Of a stretch of 64,000 nt of DNA, positions 7,385-58,740 are shown piece by piece. This DNA comes from Pratylenchus scribneri (lineage: Eukaryota > Nematoda > Chromadorea > Rhabditida > Pratylenchidae). Location of the stretch: assembly GCA_030063045.1 (NCBI GenBank), contig JAQSEB010000007.1, forward strand, positions 1,798,001 through 1,862,000, given 5' to 3'. Numbering within the stretch: position 1 is the stretch's first letter; each line of letters starts with the position of its first letter. Under the pieces are notes generated by a model. The model searched no databases. It saw only the letters and a list, made by a program, of their open reading frames with translations, and had not been told where the DNA came from. Position numbers and translations under genes: made by a program.

Positions 7385-7968
7385 TATGTTCGCCAAAATA
7401 AAATGTTCGCCAAAATGTGTTTTTCCTTTCCGGAAAAATGTTCGCCAAAATGTGTTTTCCTTTTCCGGAAAATGTTTGCCAAAATGTGTTTTCCCTTTCC
7501 GGAAAATGTTCGCCAAAATGTGTTCGCCAAAATGTGTTTTTCCGGAAAATGTTCGCCAAAATGTGTTTCCTCTTTCCGGAAAATGTTCGCCAAAATGTGT
7601 TTTCTCTTTCCGGAAAATGTTCGCCAAAATGTGTTTTCTCTTTCCGGAAAATGTTCGCCAAAATGTGTTTTCCCTTTCCGAAAATGTTCGCCAAAATGTG
7701 TTTTCCCTTTCCGGAAAATGTTCGCCAAAATGTGTTTTTCCGGAAAATGTTCGCCAAAATGTGTTTCCTCTTTCCGGAAAATGTTCGCCAAAATGTGTTT
7801 CCTCTTTCCGGAAAATGTTCGCCTTTCTTTCCGGAATGTTCGCCAAAATGTGTTTCCTCTTTCCGGAAAATGTTCGCCTTTCTTTCCGGAATGTTCGCCA
7901 AAATGTGTTTTCCCTTTCCGGAAAATGTTCGCCAAAATGTCTTTTCCCATTCCGGAAAATGTTTTTCA
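7385..7968. repeat. 34-bp tandem minisatellite, open in all six frames
   Basis: About 17-18 imperfect copies of a ~34-bp unit built from TTCGCCAAAATGTG, TTTTCCCTTTCCGG and AAAATG. Variants shorten or lengthen the pyrimidine part, and two late units carry CGCCTTTCTTTCCGGAATG. Each unit contains the palindrome TTCCGGAA. Because 34 is not a multiple of three and the unit lacks stop codons, every one of the six frames stays open for roughly 180-270 codons. These frames have no codon or domain signal and are not called as genes. It lies between the 3' ends of the EGF gene (+) and the FGF gene (-). Confidence 0.95.
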
Positions 7969-16777: not shown

Positions 16778-19602
<2,825 letters not shown>

Positions 19603-20056: not shown

Positions 20057-20158
20057 GGGCGAGGCAAGTTTGTCGAGTGAGCAGGCTGCATTGTTATCTC
20101 CGACCGGGTACCTTTCGAACGATACAACCTACTACCTCAACTCGCACAAACCTCGCCC
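20057..20158 (-). ncRNA. let-7: let-7 microRNA precursor
   Basis: The minus strand of 20118-20139 reads TGAGGTAGTAGGTTGTATC followed by GTT. This is the let-7 mature sequence with a single change at position 19 (A to C). The surrounding 102 nt fold: GGGCGAGG (20151-20158) pairs with CCTCGCCC (minus strand of 20057-20064), GTTTGT.CGAGT pairs across the base, and the mature arm's AGGTTGTAT pairs with the opposite ATGCAGCCT with G-U wobbles. An asymmetric bulge lies near mature positions 4-6. let-7 is the conserved heterochronic microRNA that represses lin-41-type targets late in larval development. It lies about 350 nt downstream of a mir-100 hairpin on the same strand. Confidence 0.95.
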
Positions 20159-20408
20159 AAATTAGCCAATATTGTTTATTTGTATTGTTGTATTTCCCCG
20201 AGAATGTTCAACATTTCACATTCCTTCCATTCAATCCATATTATTAATATTTTCCATCATTCATTTCCACCCATTTTGTCATCATTTCATTAATCTTCTT
20301 CCATCAATTCCTCCGCATTTTGTTGGCTATTGGAATTTTTGTAGTCGTTGAATATTGGAATTTATTTTCGAATTTTGTTTTTGGAATCGATGATGGCCCT
20401 CTCGCCCG

Positions 20409-20513
20409 CCCAGTCCACCCGAAACGCCGAGCCAGTCTGCTCAATTTTGGTCCGATCCGGCCATTGCCAAGGATAGACTCGAGAGACTAGTTCGGATCTA
20501 CGGGTTGACCGGG
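20409..20513 (-). ncRNA. mir-100: mir-100/mir-10-family microRNA precursor
   Basis: The minus strand of 20485-20506 reads AACCCGTAGATCCGAACTAG then TC, which has the first 18 nt of animal miR-100. The C. elegans relatives mir-51 to mir-56 begin (T/A)ACCCGTAG. The opposite arm (minus strand of about 20411-20440) pairs with it: the plus-strand words GTCCACCCG, CCGA and CAGTCT line up with mature-arm GTCAACCCG, CCGA and TAGTCT, leaving a central mismatch bubble and a loop of about 45 nt. The precursor sits just 5' of let-7 on the same strand, the order seen in the ancestral mir-100/let-7/mir-125 cluster. Confidence 0.9.
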
Positions 20514-23500
20514 TCGAGGGAGCAATTTGGCCGATTTTTTGTTTTTGGTTTTGATGAGATTTTAGAATCTGATAAAAATAAAATGAAAGAATTTTTGATG
20601 AAAAAAAATAATGGAGAGGATAAAAAAAATCCAGGACGAATTATTGTGGATGAAGGTTGGATGGATGAGCGCATTTTGCAGAATGATGAGGAGAATGAGC
20701 AGGGAAGAACCCAAGCCAAGCCAAGTTGCGTCCTCATTTATTCCCCACCATTGTCTGTGAGGTTTTGCCCCCCCCCCCCCCCCCCCATTAGTTCCCCGGG
20801 CCCGTTGCGCGTCCTAATTGAAGCATTTTCCAGGTCAAACCCAGGGAGAAGAAGGTAAATTGGGAGGGAATAATGGTTGGTTTTGATGGACTCAAGTTGG
20901 GTGGTCTTCTAATAATTTTATTGAGGAATCTACACTAAAAGATGATTTTTAAGGCGTAAAATTTTCATTCTGATGCGCAAATATGGGAAAGGAACCGGAG
21001 GAAAAAGAACGGAGCTGGCACGGACCTGCACAGTTGAACGAATTGAGGACGGGCGCGATGGAGCGGTATAAAGGGGGATTGAGAGAGGAGGAAGAAGAAT
21101 GGAATTGGGGGAGGACAACAGCAGATGTTCAGGAGGGAAAAATGAACGGAGGATTGGATGGTTCAACGGGTTTGGGCCAAAATTGGCTGGGAAGTGGGAA
21201 CGAGGATCGGCTTGGGTCGGCGCAGGCAGGCACGGACATTGGGACGAGAACAGCAGGCAAATGAATGAGTAAATGAGCGACCGAACGAAGGAAGGGAAGG
21301 AGGATGGATGAATTGGGAAAGCGCAGGGAGGAGGTCACTGACCCGAAGCCAATATCCTCCTCCCCTCCCCTTTCCTCTGCCCAATGTCCACCCTTGCCAA
21401 ATCCCCGGCCTTCCATTCTATTTTGCCATTGGCCCAATGCCAAGTACCGCCTCGGGGAGGCAAGGTCATTCGCCCAAATTGTCGTCGTTCTGCCGTTGAT
21501 GAAATGGTGGAGGAGGGAAAGAGAACGGAAAATTGGAGGGAGGAGGCAATTGGGCCTTGAGGGATGAATAAAGAATGGATTGCCAGAGGCAATTTAAGCA
21601 GTCAGCTGACCATTTAGGATTTAGCCCAAAATGAATGGACATTGTCCAATAAATGTGCCGAAAGGGCCATTAATCAGATGGAAAAAGGGAAAGGCGAGAA
21701 TTGCACAATTGAAAACGAAAAGGGAATTGGGAGAGGTGAGAAGGGTTTAGGCTTTAGGGGAGAAATTGATGCCATATCAGGTAAAATTCATTTATACGTT
21801 TACATATTGAACTACATTTTGGACATTTTAATGAGTCAGAAAATTATGAAACAAAGAATGGGGATTGGGAAAGGAGGCTAAAACGAAATGAAATGGGGGA
21901 GAGGGGCTTAAAGGAAGTGGAATGACCACTGTGCGGTTGACCGAGGAGGCCGTTGGTCCATTCTGCCTCTGTATCTGTAGTGGTTGGTTGGGTGGTCACT
22001 TTGGTCACGGGATGGGGCGGGACAGAAAGGGAGGAAAAAGGAGGTTTTGGCAAGAAGCCAACGGACAAGAGAAGGACGAAAAGGCCGAAGAATAAAAAGG
22101 AGGTGGGGAGATTGGAAAAGAGGAATAAGAAGCGGCTGGATGGAATAAAAATGTGAGGAAGGATGAAATATTTGAAGAATGGAGGGGCAGTGAGGAGGAC
22201 ACGTCATCCATTTGGGATGACGCGAATGGGTCGAGAAGGGAGGGAGGGCGGGAATGGGGTCATTCATTTCGAAAGATGAATTTGGGCCAAATGATTGGGC
22301 AAAAGGAATGGAAGAGGACAAAAAAAAACATTCTTTGAAGGGTGAGAAGGCATATGGTGGCCAAAATCCAGAATGGAAACACATAAACAGACGAAAAGCA
22401 GCAGAAGGGGAGGGTTCGAGAGCGGAGGAAGAGGGGTCACGCGCCGAGAATAGAGATGAGGCCAAATGGAGGGAAGAAGGGTAATAAAGGTTGAATGAGC
22501 ACAGAATATAAAGGAGTAAAGGGGGAATAGGGAAGAAATCAGCTGATTCTGCCCGCTTTTTATTTGCCCGCCCAAAATGCCCCGAGGCTTGTCGCGCGGA
22601 AAAGCGGCTGCCAAAAAACAGGCGGCTGGCAGTAAGCCACCCTAAATAGTTTTGAAATATTCGGGCGCACAAACAACAGGGAAAAGGGGAGGCGAACTAT
22701 GGGCGGGCGATAAACCAAGAAAAAACAGAGAAGAAGAAATGGAAGGAATAAAGGGACAAAAGCCCCTTTGGATACAAAACATGGAGGAATCATGTGAGCC
22801 AAAAGGGAGTCGAGAATAGGCCTTGGTGAAGAAAGGACGAGAATAGGAGGAAAGAGTGGAAAGGGAAGAGAAAAAGACATTCACATTCGGAGAGGCCATT
22901 GTCCCCTTCCCCATAAAAGCCGAATGGAGGCAGCCGAGCCCGGAGGGGAGGGGGAAGTGGCAGCACTCGCCGATGCGAGCCCAGAGGCAGAGGCGATGCA
23001 CAAAACCCCCTGAAAATGCATTCTCCGAATGGCGGCCACTTTCCAAATCATTCTCCCTCACATTTTTTCTTCTCTTCATCCATCCAATGTGAATGGGCAG
23101 ATTCCGTTTTGAGGTGGGGAATGGACCACTCCATTTCATTCTATGGCGCCCCAGGCTCCATTCGACCTTCCTTTTTCCTTCCATTCTCATTCGAATGACC
23201 GCGAGAAGAGCCTTGAGGGTAAGGAGGGATGGCGAGCGACAGGGAACGGACCGGCACGGGCGATTGGGGAGCAAAATGGAGGAAGGAGTGTTTTCTCGTT
23301 GAGTGTTTTGTCGTTGCCATCGTCGAGAATTTTGGTGGGGGATTTGTGGGAGGGAAAGAGGCCACCAAAGAAGCATTGAATGGGGTTTGAGGGGGAGTGA
23401 CCAGTCGGGAGAAGAATGGGTGGTCGAGGGACCATCCCCGGGAATTGGGCGAGAATTATTCAATGAATGGGGAAATTGGTGCTAGAAATTGATAAATGAA

Positions 23501-26500
23501 AGAATATAATGATGAAGATATTTTTTTTTGTTTTGTAAAACCAATGGGAAGTTGGCATTTTCTTTTTTTGTTTTCAAATTTTTTCCTAATTATTTACCCC
23601 CCCCCCCCCCCCCATTTTTGACTAACGAAAGTGTCCGTCCATTTGAATGACTCACATTTATTCGGGCATAATCCTCATTTTGGATGGTCAAAGGGGCACC
23701 AAAAACATCTGCTGGAAGGAGGGAAAGGGGGATTAATTGGTCAAAATGGTGGATTGAAGGGAATTGAGGGGAATTGGCCAAAAACTTGCTGATGATTGGA
23801 TGGCCGATGAATCATTTGAATTGAAATGGGGGAAAGGAATTAGTCAGCCTTTTTTGAGGAGGGAATCAATGAGTTGAGGGGGCGGAATGAATTCTTTTTG
23901 AAGTGGTTTTTTATTATTGGAAAAAGGTGACGAATTTATGGGGAAAGGCAGCAATTTTGGTGGTCAAAAGAATTTTTCAATATTTAAGTTGAAAAAAGGA
24001 GATGAAAAATTTGGATTGACGGAGAATAATTTTTATTTGATCAGCCGAATTTAATTAATTTTTGGTCAATTTGGGGGAAATTATGCAGAAAAAACCTGAA
24101 AAATGTTGAAAATTAAAAATTGATTGAAAATTTGTGTAAAATCGACAAATTATTTGGGCCATTCAAGGGAAAATGAATTTAATGAGAGGAATTTATGGCC
24201 AATGAGGGGGGAATCAAGGCAATGGATGGAATCAATTTGTGGAAGAATTTTGTGCATTTTTGTTCCTTCAAGGCCATCGGCCCACCCGCCTTTCCACCTC
24301 ATTTTCAGTCTGCAATGATCGGCCATCACACGCCGTTCTTTTTTTTTGGCCATTTGTTGGCACTCAATGGCACCGTTGGGCAAAAAAGGGGGCAGACGGC
24401 GGCTACCAAAAAACGCCGAAAAAGGGGCAAAGCAAATTAATTTGTGGGGGCAAAGGGAAATGGACCCCTAAAATTCGGACGACGACCCGCCAACCCTCGA
24501 TCTTCGTTCCCAAAAGCAAAAAAGGGGTGAAGAATGGTGGAAGGGGAGAAGGCCGTGCTAGTCCCGTCCAAACCCGGCGGGGGCGAATGAGAGGAATTGG
24601 ATCGAAAATTCGCAACATTGTTGAGGGCAAAGAGTGCAGATTGGGGGGGGGGGGGCAAAATGAAGGCAACAAAAAAACGCCAAAACAAACAATCGACCCA
24701 AAAGTGGGGGAAAAAGCCGGGCAAACATTTGGGAGAAAGAAGGGAGAGATTTTATGGGCTAAAATTTAAATGGATATAAAAATAAATTGAAGGGTGGAAT
24801 TGACGTAAATTTGGAGGGGAATATGAGGAAAAACAGCTGGGCTAAACATTGAGGGAGAGAGGATTTTGTGTTTTGGTTGAAAATAATGCCATCTTTTGGG
24901 AATGGAATGGTGGATGATCCCTTGAGGGGGAATAGATGGAAAGCGAACGGATGGAAAGGAGAGGAGAAAAACGGCTGGACAGAGGCGGAGAATGGAAGTC
25001 GAGAATAGCTGGAAATTGGGCGAGAACGAGAATTGTGGGAAAAGGCAGAGAAGGGGAAGAGGATGGAGGACATTCAACGAAGACGAAAAATGCAAAAAAT
25101 GGCTTTAAAGGCGGCGAATGGAAGTGAAAAAGGGGAAGGACAAATGTTGGGGGCAAATAACAAAAATTGTAGTGGAAAGAATAATCGAAGAAAGTGGGGG
25201 AATGTTGCAAATTATTTGGGGGTTAACAAATTAATAATAATGGAGAATAATAATGGGATTGAGGGGAAAGAATGTTGCGAATTGACTTCAAAAAAGAAGG
25301 CAAATAAAAATGAAGTGGAGGGAAGGAAAATAATCCGTCCTGTGGATTTTGGGAGGGTAATAAAGGGGCAGGTGGGCTAAAAACTGGCTGGCAATATGAA
25401 AAGGGTCACGCCAGTCAGCTGATTTTGGGAGAAAACAACTGGCAAAAAAAGAGGGAAAGAGGTTTCGATTCATAAAAGAAAGTAAAAAAGAGATGAGGTC
25501 TATATTGTCCACAATAGTACATGCTAAACTAAACCAAATTGGGTTTTAAACTTTTATTTGGCTCGATTTCTTTGTGTAGATTAAAAATGGCTACAGTGAA
25601 CGGTTTTAGCAACAAAGAAAATGCGGGAAAGGGACATTGAGAAAAGAAGATCATTTTGAGTAGCCTTTAGGGAATATTGCTATTTGGAATTGGAATTGAT
25701 GTTCCTTCTATTTTACTATTTCCCTTATCCCTTCACACTGATTGGATTGTCAAAAAAAAAACAGTATCCATAAAATGGACGAATTGTTGGATTGGATTAG
25801 AGTGGCCACCGACCGATCATTGCTCTTTTATCCACACAAAATGATCAACTATCCTGCACTAGGCCCAAAAAAACTATAAGGTTTCCTTTTTTAAGATTTA
25901 TCGAAGAAATATCGAAAAAAAGAGTAGAATTTATTTATTTTTAATTTGAAAAATGAATATTTTGCATTGACCATTGAACGGCATTTGTTTTTTGCAAAAT
26001 TTTTATGGAATAAATTGATGCAAAATTGATTGAGTACAAAATTGTCGCGACAAATTAAAGTAAAAAAGATAAGAAGGAAAATAGGGGACAGAAGGGGAAT
26101 TTCGCTGAAAAAATCCGAAAATGGTCTTAAATGGTGGAGGAATTGCGCGAAAAAGGCCATAAAAAAAGAGGAATTTGAATGGAATAATGGGGGAACAAAG
26201 GAGGATTGGGGAAATGAAAACATCTTCCATAAAGATTAATGTCCTTCACATCGATGAATGGGCAAAATGCGGGCCGCCGGATTTGTGTTTTTTTGACTGC
26301 CAATTTTAAGAGGGAATTCGGGTGGAAAATTGGTTGAAATTTTCATTGAACCATTTTGTCATTTCCACCAACAAAAATAATCTCTGAACGAGGAATGATT
26401 GAATAAATACACTGGATTGGATTGAATGGCTCATTCATCAATAAAACCAAAAAACTTCGATCGCATTAGAAGACAATGTGGAGGAGGAAAAAGGTGGAAA

Positions 26501-56745: not shown

Positions 56746-58740
56746 TCAAACTTGGAGTTTCATTGTCTCTTGCATCCGAGGTCCAGGCATAATCTCGATT
56801 GGCCCATACGGTTCGTCCTGTTCCACTTCAATGGCTTGCCATTTCTTTAATTCCAACAAAGCATAAAATTTCTGTGCTGCGGTACGCCGAGTTGAACCTT
56901 TTGTGAGAAGATCATCGAAATTAATCTGAAAAAAACACAAATGTAAAGGAAAATCAAAACAAAAATTAAATACCTTATTTTCTTCATTTGATCGTATTTT
57001 GGTTGAAATTGCCTGCAATACATTCTTCGTTCGGCGTGTAAACAATTCCCCTTCTTCTTCTTCGCCATCCTCTTTATCATGAATTCGGGAGCGTCTCGCT
57101 GTTGATCTTTTTTCGGTTGGTGAAATATTGACCTCAGGCACCGGAGTTTCGGGGACTGCCTCCGGAATCAAATTCTCATTAACTTCATTTACGCTTGGAG
57201 GACGCATTTCCTATGAATATTATTTTATTAATTTTTTTTATAAATAAATACATCTTTGCCATAATCATCATCGATTGTGTCCGTTAACTCAATGTCACGG
57301 TGAAGTTCATCCGTATCAATTTCATTTATGTCCAATGCGTGCAATTCCAAATGAGATTGGTAAAACTGAAAAAAACAATATATTTGTTTTAATCTTTTAC
57401 AAACCTTGAGAATTTGTGGATCCATAATCCATTCCATACAACTTGGCATGGAAAGAATCTTCTCAAGTTGACTATTTTCCCGAAGTTTCATCAATTGTTT
57501 TGTTGGTGGCGCAAGATCAAGCGGTTGGATGGTGTCACTGTAAATAAATATTTTAAATTTTTAATATTTATTAACCTATAATCGGCCATATTCGCTTTCA
57601 TTTCTTCTCCGCTGATATTCTTTTGTTCATCAATAATAAGTTTTCGCTTTCGCTTATGGCGAATTTTTTCATGGTGCGGTTGTTGTTCGAGAGGTTCAAG
57701 TTGAAAGCTAAGTTCATTGTTAGGGATATTCTGTTTTTCTTCATCAATTTCCATTGGTTGTCCGTTATTTTCATTTGTTCCTGATGCCAATGGCTGTCCA
57801 TCAAGGCCAAATTCACTTTATTATTATTTTTGTAAATTTAAGCACAAATAATTAATTACCGGTTTATTTCTGAAGAATTAAAGAGTAAATCCAAATCATC
57901 CGCATTCCCAAAATCATTGAAATCATTGTTGAAAAGTTCAAATCCTTCTTTGTCTTTTTGGAGTCCATTATTTTGCATGCTTGAATTTCGTGGAGTTTCA
58001 GAACCGCGTCGCTGTTGTTCCAGTTCCTCTTCCATTTCTTCAAAAATACTCCTTGATCGTGCTCTTCTCAAATGGTCGCGTTCACCAAAATCATCAAGCT
58101 AAAATAAGTTTATTTGCGAATATTAAAAAAATGCTCTTACCTCTTCGCCATTTGGATTGGCAACAAAGTCCAATGCATGGCCATAGCTGTCTTGTCGACG
58201 CTCTTCATGCAAAGTAATATCGTCAATTCTGCTTTGATTAGCTTGGAATTCTCTTATTGGTCCGAGGTCGAAGTCATTCAATTCCGGAAGATTATCGTAG
58301 AAATCGGTGATAACCTGAATATTATTTTTGTTAATTTTATTTTTAATATGAAAATTTTCGACCTCGGGAATTTCGCTGCTGGATTTTTCTCGATCACGAA
58401 GTGCATTATCATTTGTGCCACCATGCTTGAAAGCCATCTTCAATTTTAGAAATGCATCATTGCAATCCGCCAGCACATATTTTGCTTTGCGTGAATAAAT
58501 TCGAACAATTCCAAGCAATAAATGGCCAGTGGTGCGCAATGAAAGTTTGACCTCAAATTGCATCAACATTACTTAATGTAAATGAATATAATAAACCTTT
58601 GGTTGAATTATTTCTGAAACAGCATCTTGCACATTTGTCTCATAAATTTGTGCCTTGGAGAGCTTTTTCTCCCAGTGAGCTGCCAGCCATATTTTAGCAA
58701 GTGGTCCCTTTTTTGAGAGAACAAATTGTGCATAAAACAT
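56746..58740 (-). CDS. rad-21: cohesin kleisin subunit RAD21/SCC1
   Basis: Kleisin that closes the SMC1-SMC3 cohesin ring. It starts [36 protein letters not shown], the highly conserved SMC3-binding N-terminus of RAD21 (REC8 differs at several of these sites). Next come [40 protein letters not shown] and a long acidic middle ([55 protein letters not shown]). A basic region ([20 protein letters not shown]) precedes the C-terminal winged helix [40 protein letters not shown]. It ends [10 protein letters not shown]. The middle contains possible separase-type ExxR sites that I did not map. Around nine exons. Mitotic RAD21 or a paralogue such as COH-3/4 cannot be separated here. Confidence 0.9.

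Follow-up and report, generated by a model that had tools for sequence, protein, structure and literature searches.

In the Drosophila let-7-Complex, miR-100 and let-7 are clustered and the members are listed in the order miR-100, let-7, miR-125 (PMC4979967). Among nematodes, the let-7/miR-100 cluster of Meloidogyne incognita (MiV1ctg1924) carries both microRNAs on the same strand about 350 bp apart (PMC4524723). The pair is also linked in Brugia, where mir-125 was not identified in the account of PMC3282659 and where more miR-100 paralogs are found elsewhere (PMC4524723, PMC3282659). By contrast, C. elegans has let-7 and the mir-51 family as orthologous families, miR-51 being an ortholog of miR-100 (PMC12407057), and the two are described as unlinked (PMC3282659).

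Here we describe a mir-100/let-7 pair of the root-lesion nematode Pratylenchus scribneri, located in a stretch of 64,000 nucleotides that was analysed as a whole (hereafter the window). The stretch belongs to a draft assembly of 227,248,964 bases in 276 contigs (published as 227.24 Mb in 276 contigs, from PacBio HiFi reads; PMC10138993). The features discussed below are the following.

18282 to 18641, plus strand: open frame with an aconitase domain (Pfam PF00330, E 2e-28), a neighbouring gene on the opposite strand
20057 to 20158, minus strand: let-7 precursor hairpin, limits taken from the predicted stem (folding energy −51.5 kcal/mol, z −4.8; Rfam let-7 38.2 bits)
20093 to 20101, minus strand: GGAGAUAAC, candidate site for the LIN-28 zinc knuckles, on the 3′ side of the let-7 loop (from the Rfam consensus alignment)
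20118 to 20139, minus strand: mature let-7, 5′ arm, UGAGGUAGUAGGUUGUAUCGUU, with C at position 19 (1 mismatch to canonical)
20159 to 20400, minus strand: A+T-rich spacer between the hairpins (GC 0.336 over 20170–20410)
20401 to 20522, minus strand: mir-100 precursor hairpin, limits taken from the predicted stem (folding energy −65.7 kcal/mol, z −5.7)
20484 to 20506, minus strand: mature miR-100, 5′ arm, AACCCGUAGAUCCGAACUAGUCU (identical to M. incognita miR-100b in PMC4524723)
20569 to 20583, minus strand: TTTTATTTTTATCAG, possible 3′ splice (or trans-splice) acceptor upstream of mir-100 (pattern only)

Identity and arrangement of the pair

A sequence-only reading had placed miR-100 and let-7 on the minus strand at this locus, and both sequences are indeed read there (AACCCGTAGATCCGAACTAGTCT at 20506–20484 and TGAGGTAGTAGGTTGTATCGTT at 20139–20118). 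Canonical let-7 matches a single place in the window at up to three mismatches (1 mismatch in 22 nt), as does canonical miR-100 (1 mismatch in 21 nt). Neither match is due to chance, since none of 100 shuffles contained a match to either at that threshold. The let-7 sequence has the seed GAGGUAG, is identical to the canonical form at 21 of 22 nt and lies on the 5′ arm of its hairpin. miR-100, also on the 5′ arm, has the seed ACCCGUA and shares 20 of 21 nt with the canonical form and 23 of 23 with M. incognita miR-100b, the 23-nt aacccguagauccgaacuagucu, to which it is identical letter for letter (PMC4524723). In Bursaphelenchus xylophilus, miR-100 ends in UUGUGU (PMC2953492), whereas the AGUCU end is common to Meloidogyne and Pratylenchus.

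Folding bears out both precursors, each being more stable than all of 200 dinucleotide shuffles; the opposite strands fold worse (z −3.3 for miR-100 and −2.7 for let-7). The hairpins have a GC content of 0.559 and 0.525, against 0.336 in the spacer. An Rfam scan of the whole window returned no family at its gathering score. The let-7 model (RF00027) aligns to the let-7 hairpin over its full length (1–84) and, in a 2-kb search, gives 38.2 bits (E 1.2e-5) against a gathering score of 53.5, which is a curators' cut-off and not a biological feature. The let-7 family name thus rests on the mature sequence and the hairpin, without the Rfam threshold. The mir-10 model (RF00104) missed the miR-100 hairpin both in a 2-kb scan (E up to 1) and in a genome search (E up to 10); the hairpin spans about 122 nt and the model 74 positions.

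miR-100 lies upstream of let-7 on the same strand; their 5′ ends are separated by 367 nt and the predicted stems (approximately 20522–20401 and 20158–20057) by about 240 nt. Strand, order and close spacing support the view that the bilaterian mir-100/let-7 arrangement is kept here, and the locus is almost certainly the P. scribneri ortholog of that pair. The reported lack of linkage in C. elegans (PMC3282659) agrees with the sequence-only reading. Its surprise value, as that reading put it, is much lower, because nematodes with the pair, namely M. incognita and Brugia, have already been published. The pair is ordinary for these nematodes, an expected example of a known arrangement, and the retained cluster is not new; what is new is small and twofold, a C at position 19 of let-7 (hereafter C19) and a GGAG in the let-7 loop.

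The nearest described cluster, that of M. incognita, has A at let-7 position 19 and three miR-100 paralogs, whereas in P. scribneri that position is C and a single miR-100 is found below two mismatches. The table in PMC4524723 gives M. incognita let-7 before miR-100 on the plus strand, which would be the reverse of the P. scribneri order if the listing, which may not be genomic, followed the genome. Brugia, as described in print, resembles P. scribneri in its linked pair and in that no mir-125 was identified, and differs in its additional miR-100 paralogs. The Drosophila complex has miR-125, and no miR-125/lin-4 was found in P. scribneri.

The window has further features. The plus strand carries a run of 19 C (G on the minus strand) at 20768–20786, which places it some 250 bases upstream of the hairpin of mir-100, and three further runs of at least 12 lie at 23597, 28409 and 28473. 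Tandem arrays with a 34-bp unit occupy 7400–7963 (12.4 copies at 7400–7823, 88% matches) and lack stop codons in several frames of either strand, giving repetitive long open reading frames. A minus-strand open frame at 58123–58572 has the N-terminal domain of Rad21/Rec8, a cohesin subunit.

Copy number and the let-7 position 19 variant

No second copy of the locus was found in a DNA search of the assembly with 721 bases of the cluster, nor one of the cluster plus aconitase with 2,961 bases; in both searches the window itself was the sole match. Several other genes and regions are present in three copies, whereas the mir-100/let-7 locus was found once. One such region occurs on three contigs at 90–91% identity, several NHL genes likewise come in threes, and the published ploidy estimate is diploid (PMC10138993).

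A miR-100 17-mer matched the assembly once with no mismatch, never with one and 63 times with two or three, that is, 64 places as compared with 208 for the reversed control. Twenty of these places were listed and ten, including the true one, were folded. The true locus alone was convincing among those ten; a divergent paralog may exist. One of the other loci (C50:3012500, 2 mismatches) is predicted to form a hairpin (−39.2 kcal/mol) with the match in its 5′ arm and was set aside as CCGA-rich and repeat-like in appearance; similar miR-100-like seed matches are present on other contigs. Another was rejected as it sits within a self-complementary repeat.

mir-125/lin-4, which the sequence-only reading did not find within 450 bp downstream, is absent from the window (TCCCTGAGA occurs 0 times), and no convincing one was seen in the genome. 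A genome-wide pattern search, made with the C. elegans form of lin-4 at up to three mismatches, gave a single match, at three mismatches and without a microRNA-like hairpin. The lin-4 Rfam search of the genome gave no match, which is weak evidence because the Rfam search also missed the true miR-100. These absences are to be weighed against the roughly one-third of BUSCOs missing from the assembly (65.4% complete, 32.8% missing; PMC10138993). For M. incognita, lin-4 is listed in PMC5085782 and is absent from the rows covered of Table 1 in PMC4524723.

No other let-7 was found in the 227-Mb assembly at up to three mismatches, and no second let-7 was recognized by the Rfam model among the 57 candidates scored out of 13,127 first-look candidates. 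The single let-7 has C and not A at position 19; the position is A in M. incognita (PMC4524723, PMC13148671, PMC5085782) and in B. xylophilus (PMC2953492). In the Rfam alignment the base opposite C19 also departs from the consensus, producing a C–A mismatch, and a C-to-A exchange leaves the predicted fold and energy unchanged. The C19 sequence, in RNA or DNA letters, appears in none of 5.39 million full texts, supplements and figures lying outside that search; two of these texts carry the miR-100 form.

It is very improbable that this let-7 is a decaying copy, with C19 and the weak Rfam score marking a pseudogene and the working let-7 missing from the assembly. The sub-threshold score and the share of missing BUSCOs (PMC10138993) would fit such a copy, but the seed and the first 18 nt are intact, the hairpin has a z of −4.8 and the search at up to three mismatches found no other let-7 in the assembly. 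We also think it unlikely that C19 reflects the assembly or an allele, with the usual A19 on another haplotype that was purged. Substitution errors are rare in PacBio HiFi reads. Haplotigs were purged from this assembly, as that explanation needs, but it was made from HiFi reads (PMC10138993), and the base opposite C19 departs from the Rfam consensus too.

Compensation for C19 was sought in the lin-41 target. The pattern TACAACC..CTNCCTC occurs at 16 places in the genome, against 166 for its reversed control; among the 16 are the complement of let-7 itself and three copies, about 90% alike, of one region. The candidate lin-41, L042, is a TRIM71/Thin-like NHL gene whose best PDB match is Thin, with TRIM71 next. 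In one copy of three, no good let-7 site was present in the approximately 3.6 kb past its last NHL exon, and the best let-7 C19 duplex there reached −15.5 kcal/mol, as compared with a median of −18.8 kcal/mol for the best duplexes of 30 shuffled microRNAs. No compensation was therefore found at L042, which may not be lin-41.

Transcription and the GGAG motif of the let-7 loop

We consider it likely that miR-100 and let-7 come from one minus-strand primary transcript. In the model that we propose, a single primary RNA would be made with miR-100 first, and Drosha and Dicer would cut the two hairpins from it. Early in development, LIN-28 would bind the GGAG of the let-7 loop and block the let-7 half alone; miR-100 would therefore accumulate first and let-7 later. 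That LIN-28 does control let-7 through the loop, holding back one half of one transcript, is a tentative guess and rather less than an even prospect.

In four Caenorhabditis species, the let-7 loop is without GGAG and a GGAG-bearing LIN-28 site is found instead (PMC4408804, 2015), in C. elegans about 170 nt downstream of let-7. P. scribneri shows the reverse: its loop contains GGAG, and the 400 nt that follow contain none. PMC4408804 reports no loop motif for its flatworm, mollusc, annelid and fly either, in contrast to the P. scribneri loop. GGAGAUAAC, whose GGAG is at 20101, stands opposite GGagaUAAC in the alignment with the Rfam let-7 consensus and is a possible LIN-28 docking motif as judged from its sequence. 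When the 24-nt loop is shuffled by mono-nucleotides, GGAG by itself turns up in 21% of cases, and in 17% for the 19-nt apical stretch, which ends one base short of the motif. The spacer has a further GGAG at 20314. The longer GGAGATAA, which was chosen after the fact and includes bases of an arm-side conserved segment, appears in 0.08% of 24-nt loop shuffles. Folding of the precursor predicts partial pairing of the GGAG bases (unpaired probabilities 0.01, 0.22, 0.47 and 0.68).

The assembly contains a predicted LIN-28-like gene. Contig C50 has two cold-shock domain matches of equal score, separated by about 40 kb (L072 at 219779 and L073 at 260015). L072, the one that was read through, has two zinc knuckles in the same frame past a stop and so presumably encoded by the following exon; the second has standard CCHC spacing and the first is one residue longer. 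Compared with solved structures, the knuckles have 16 matches; the best 7 are LIN-28, and the rest, which score less well, are nucleocapsid proteins and others that contain knuckles.

Stage profiles from M. incognita bear on the proposed order. From egg through J2, J3 and J4 to female, the values are 19.26, 15.31, 13.21, 12.83 and 13.64 for miR-100 and 12.43, 10.67, 15.71, 17.97 and 19.02 for let-7 (PMC5085782; normalised, given as DESeq2 values on a scale that is apparently log2). The miR-100 profiled there is the P. scribneri sequence plus one base, but the values may not represent the cluster, because M. incognita has three miR-100 paralogs. Opposite profiles would follow from one transcript and LIN-28, and also from separate promoters or from paralogs.

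It is improbable, in our estimate, that the two are independent adjacent microRNA genes with their own promoters and that the opposite M. incognita profiles arise from separate transcription. Those profiles (PMC5085782) are what such genes would give, and the spacer holds minus-strand AATAAA at 20366 and 20180 that could end a miR-100-only transcript. However, AATAAA/ATTAAA is common here (7 in 3.4 kb), the stems are only about 240 nt apart, and in Drosophila the clustered microRNAs are transcribed together and diverge through processing and turnover (PMC4979967). Other signals around the pair comprise the acceptor-like TTTTATTTTTATCAG, one of four such matches in 22800–19400; a sigma-70 promoter scan was set aside as made for bacteria.

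The single primary transcript remains our preferred reading. In M. incognita, HBL1 mRNA is pulled down by a let-7 mimic (PMC13148671), which makes a developmental-timing role in P. scribneri plausible. It would be more speculative, and rather doubtful, to see here a deuterostome-like arrangement, with LIN-28 on the loop GGAG in place of the downstream site of Caenorhabditis, one transcript and miR-100 early and let-7 late, that together with C19 would amount to lineage-specific rewiring.

With this locus, a root-lesion nematode joins those in which the ancient pair is known to persist. Because a single let-7 and a single close miR-100 were found in the assembly, the question of opposite developmental levels within one short cluster becomes testable. 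The locus also bears on whether control of let-7 by LIN-28 through the loop arose with the deuterostomes: if the arrangement proposed here is true, loop docking would either be older than deuterostomes or have evolved twice.
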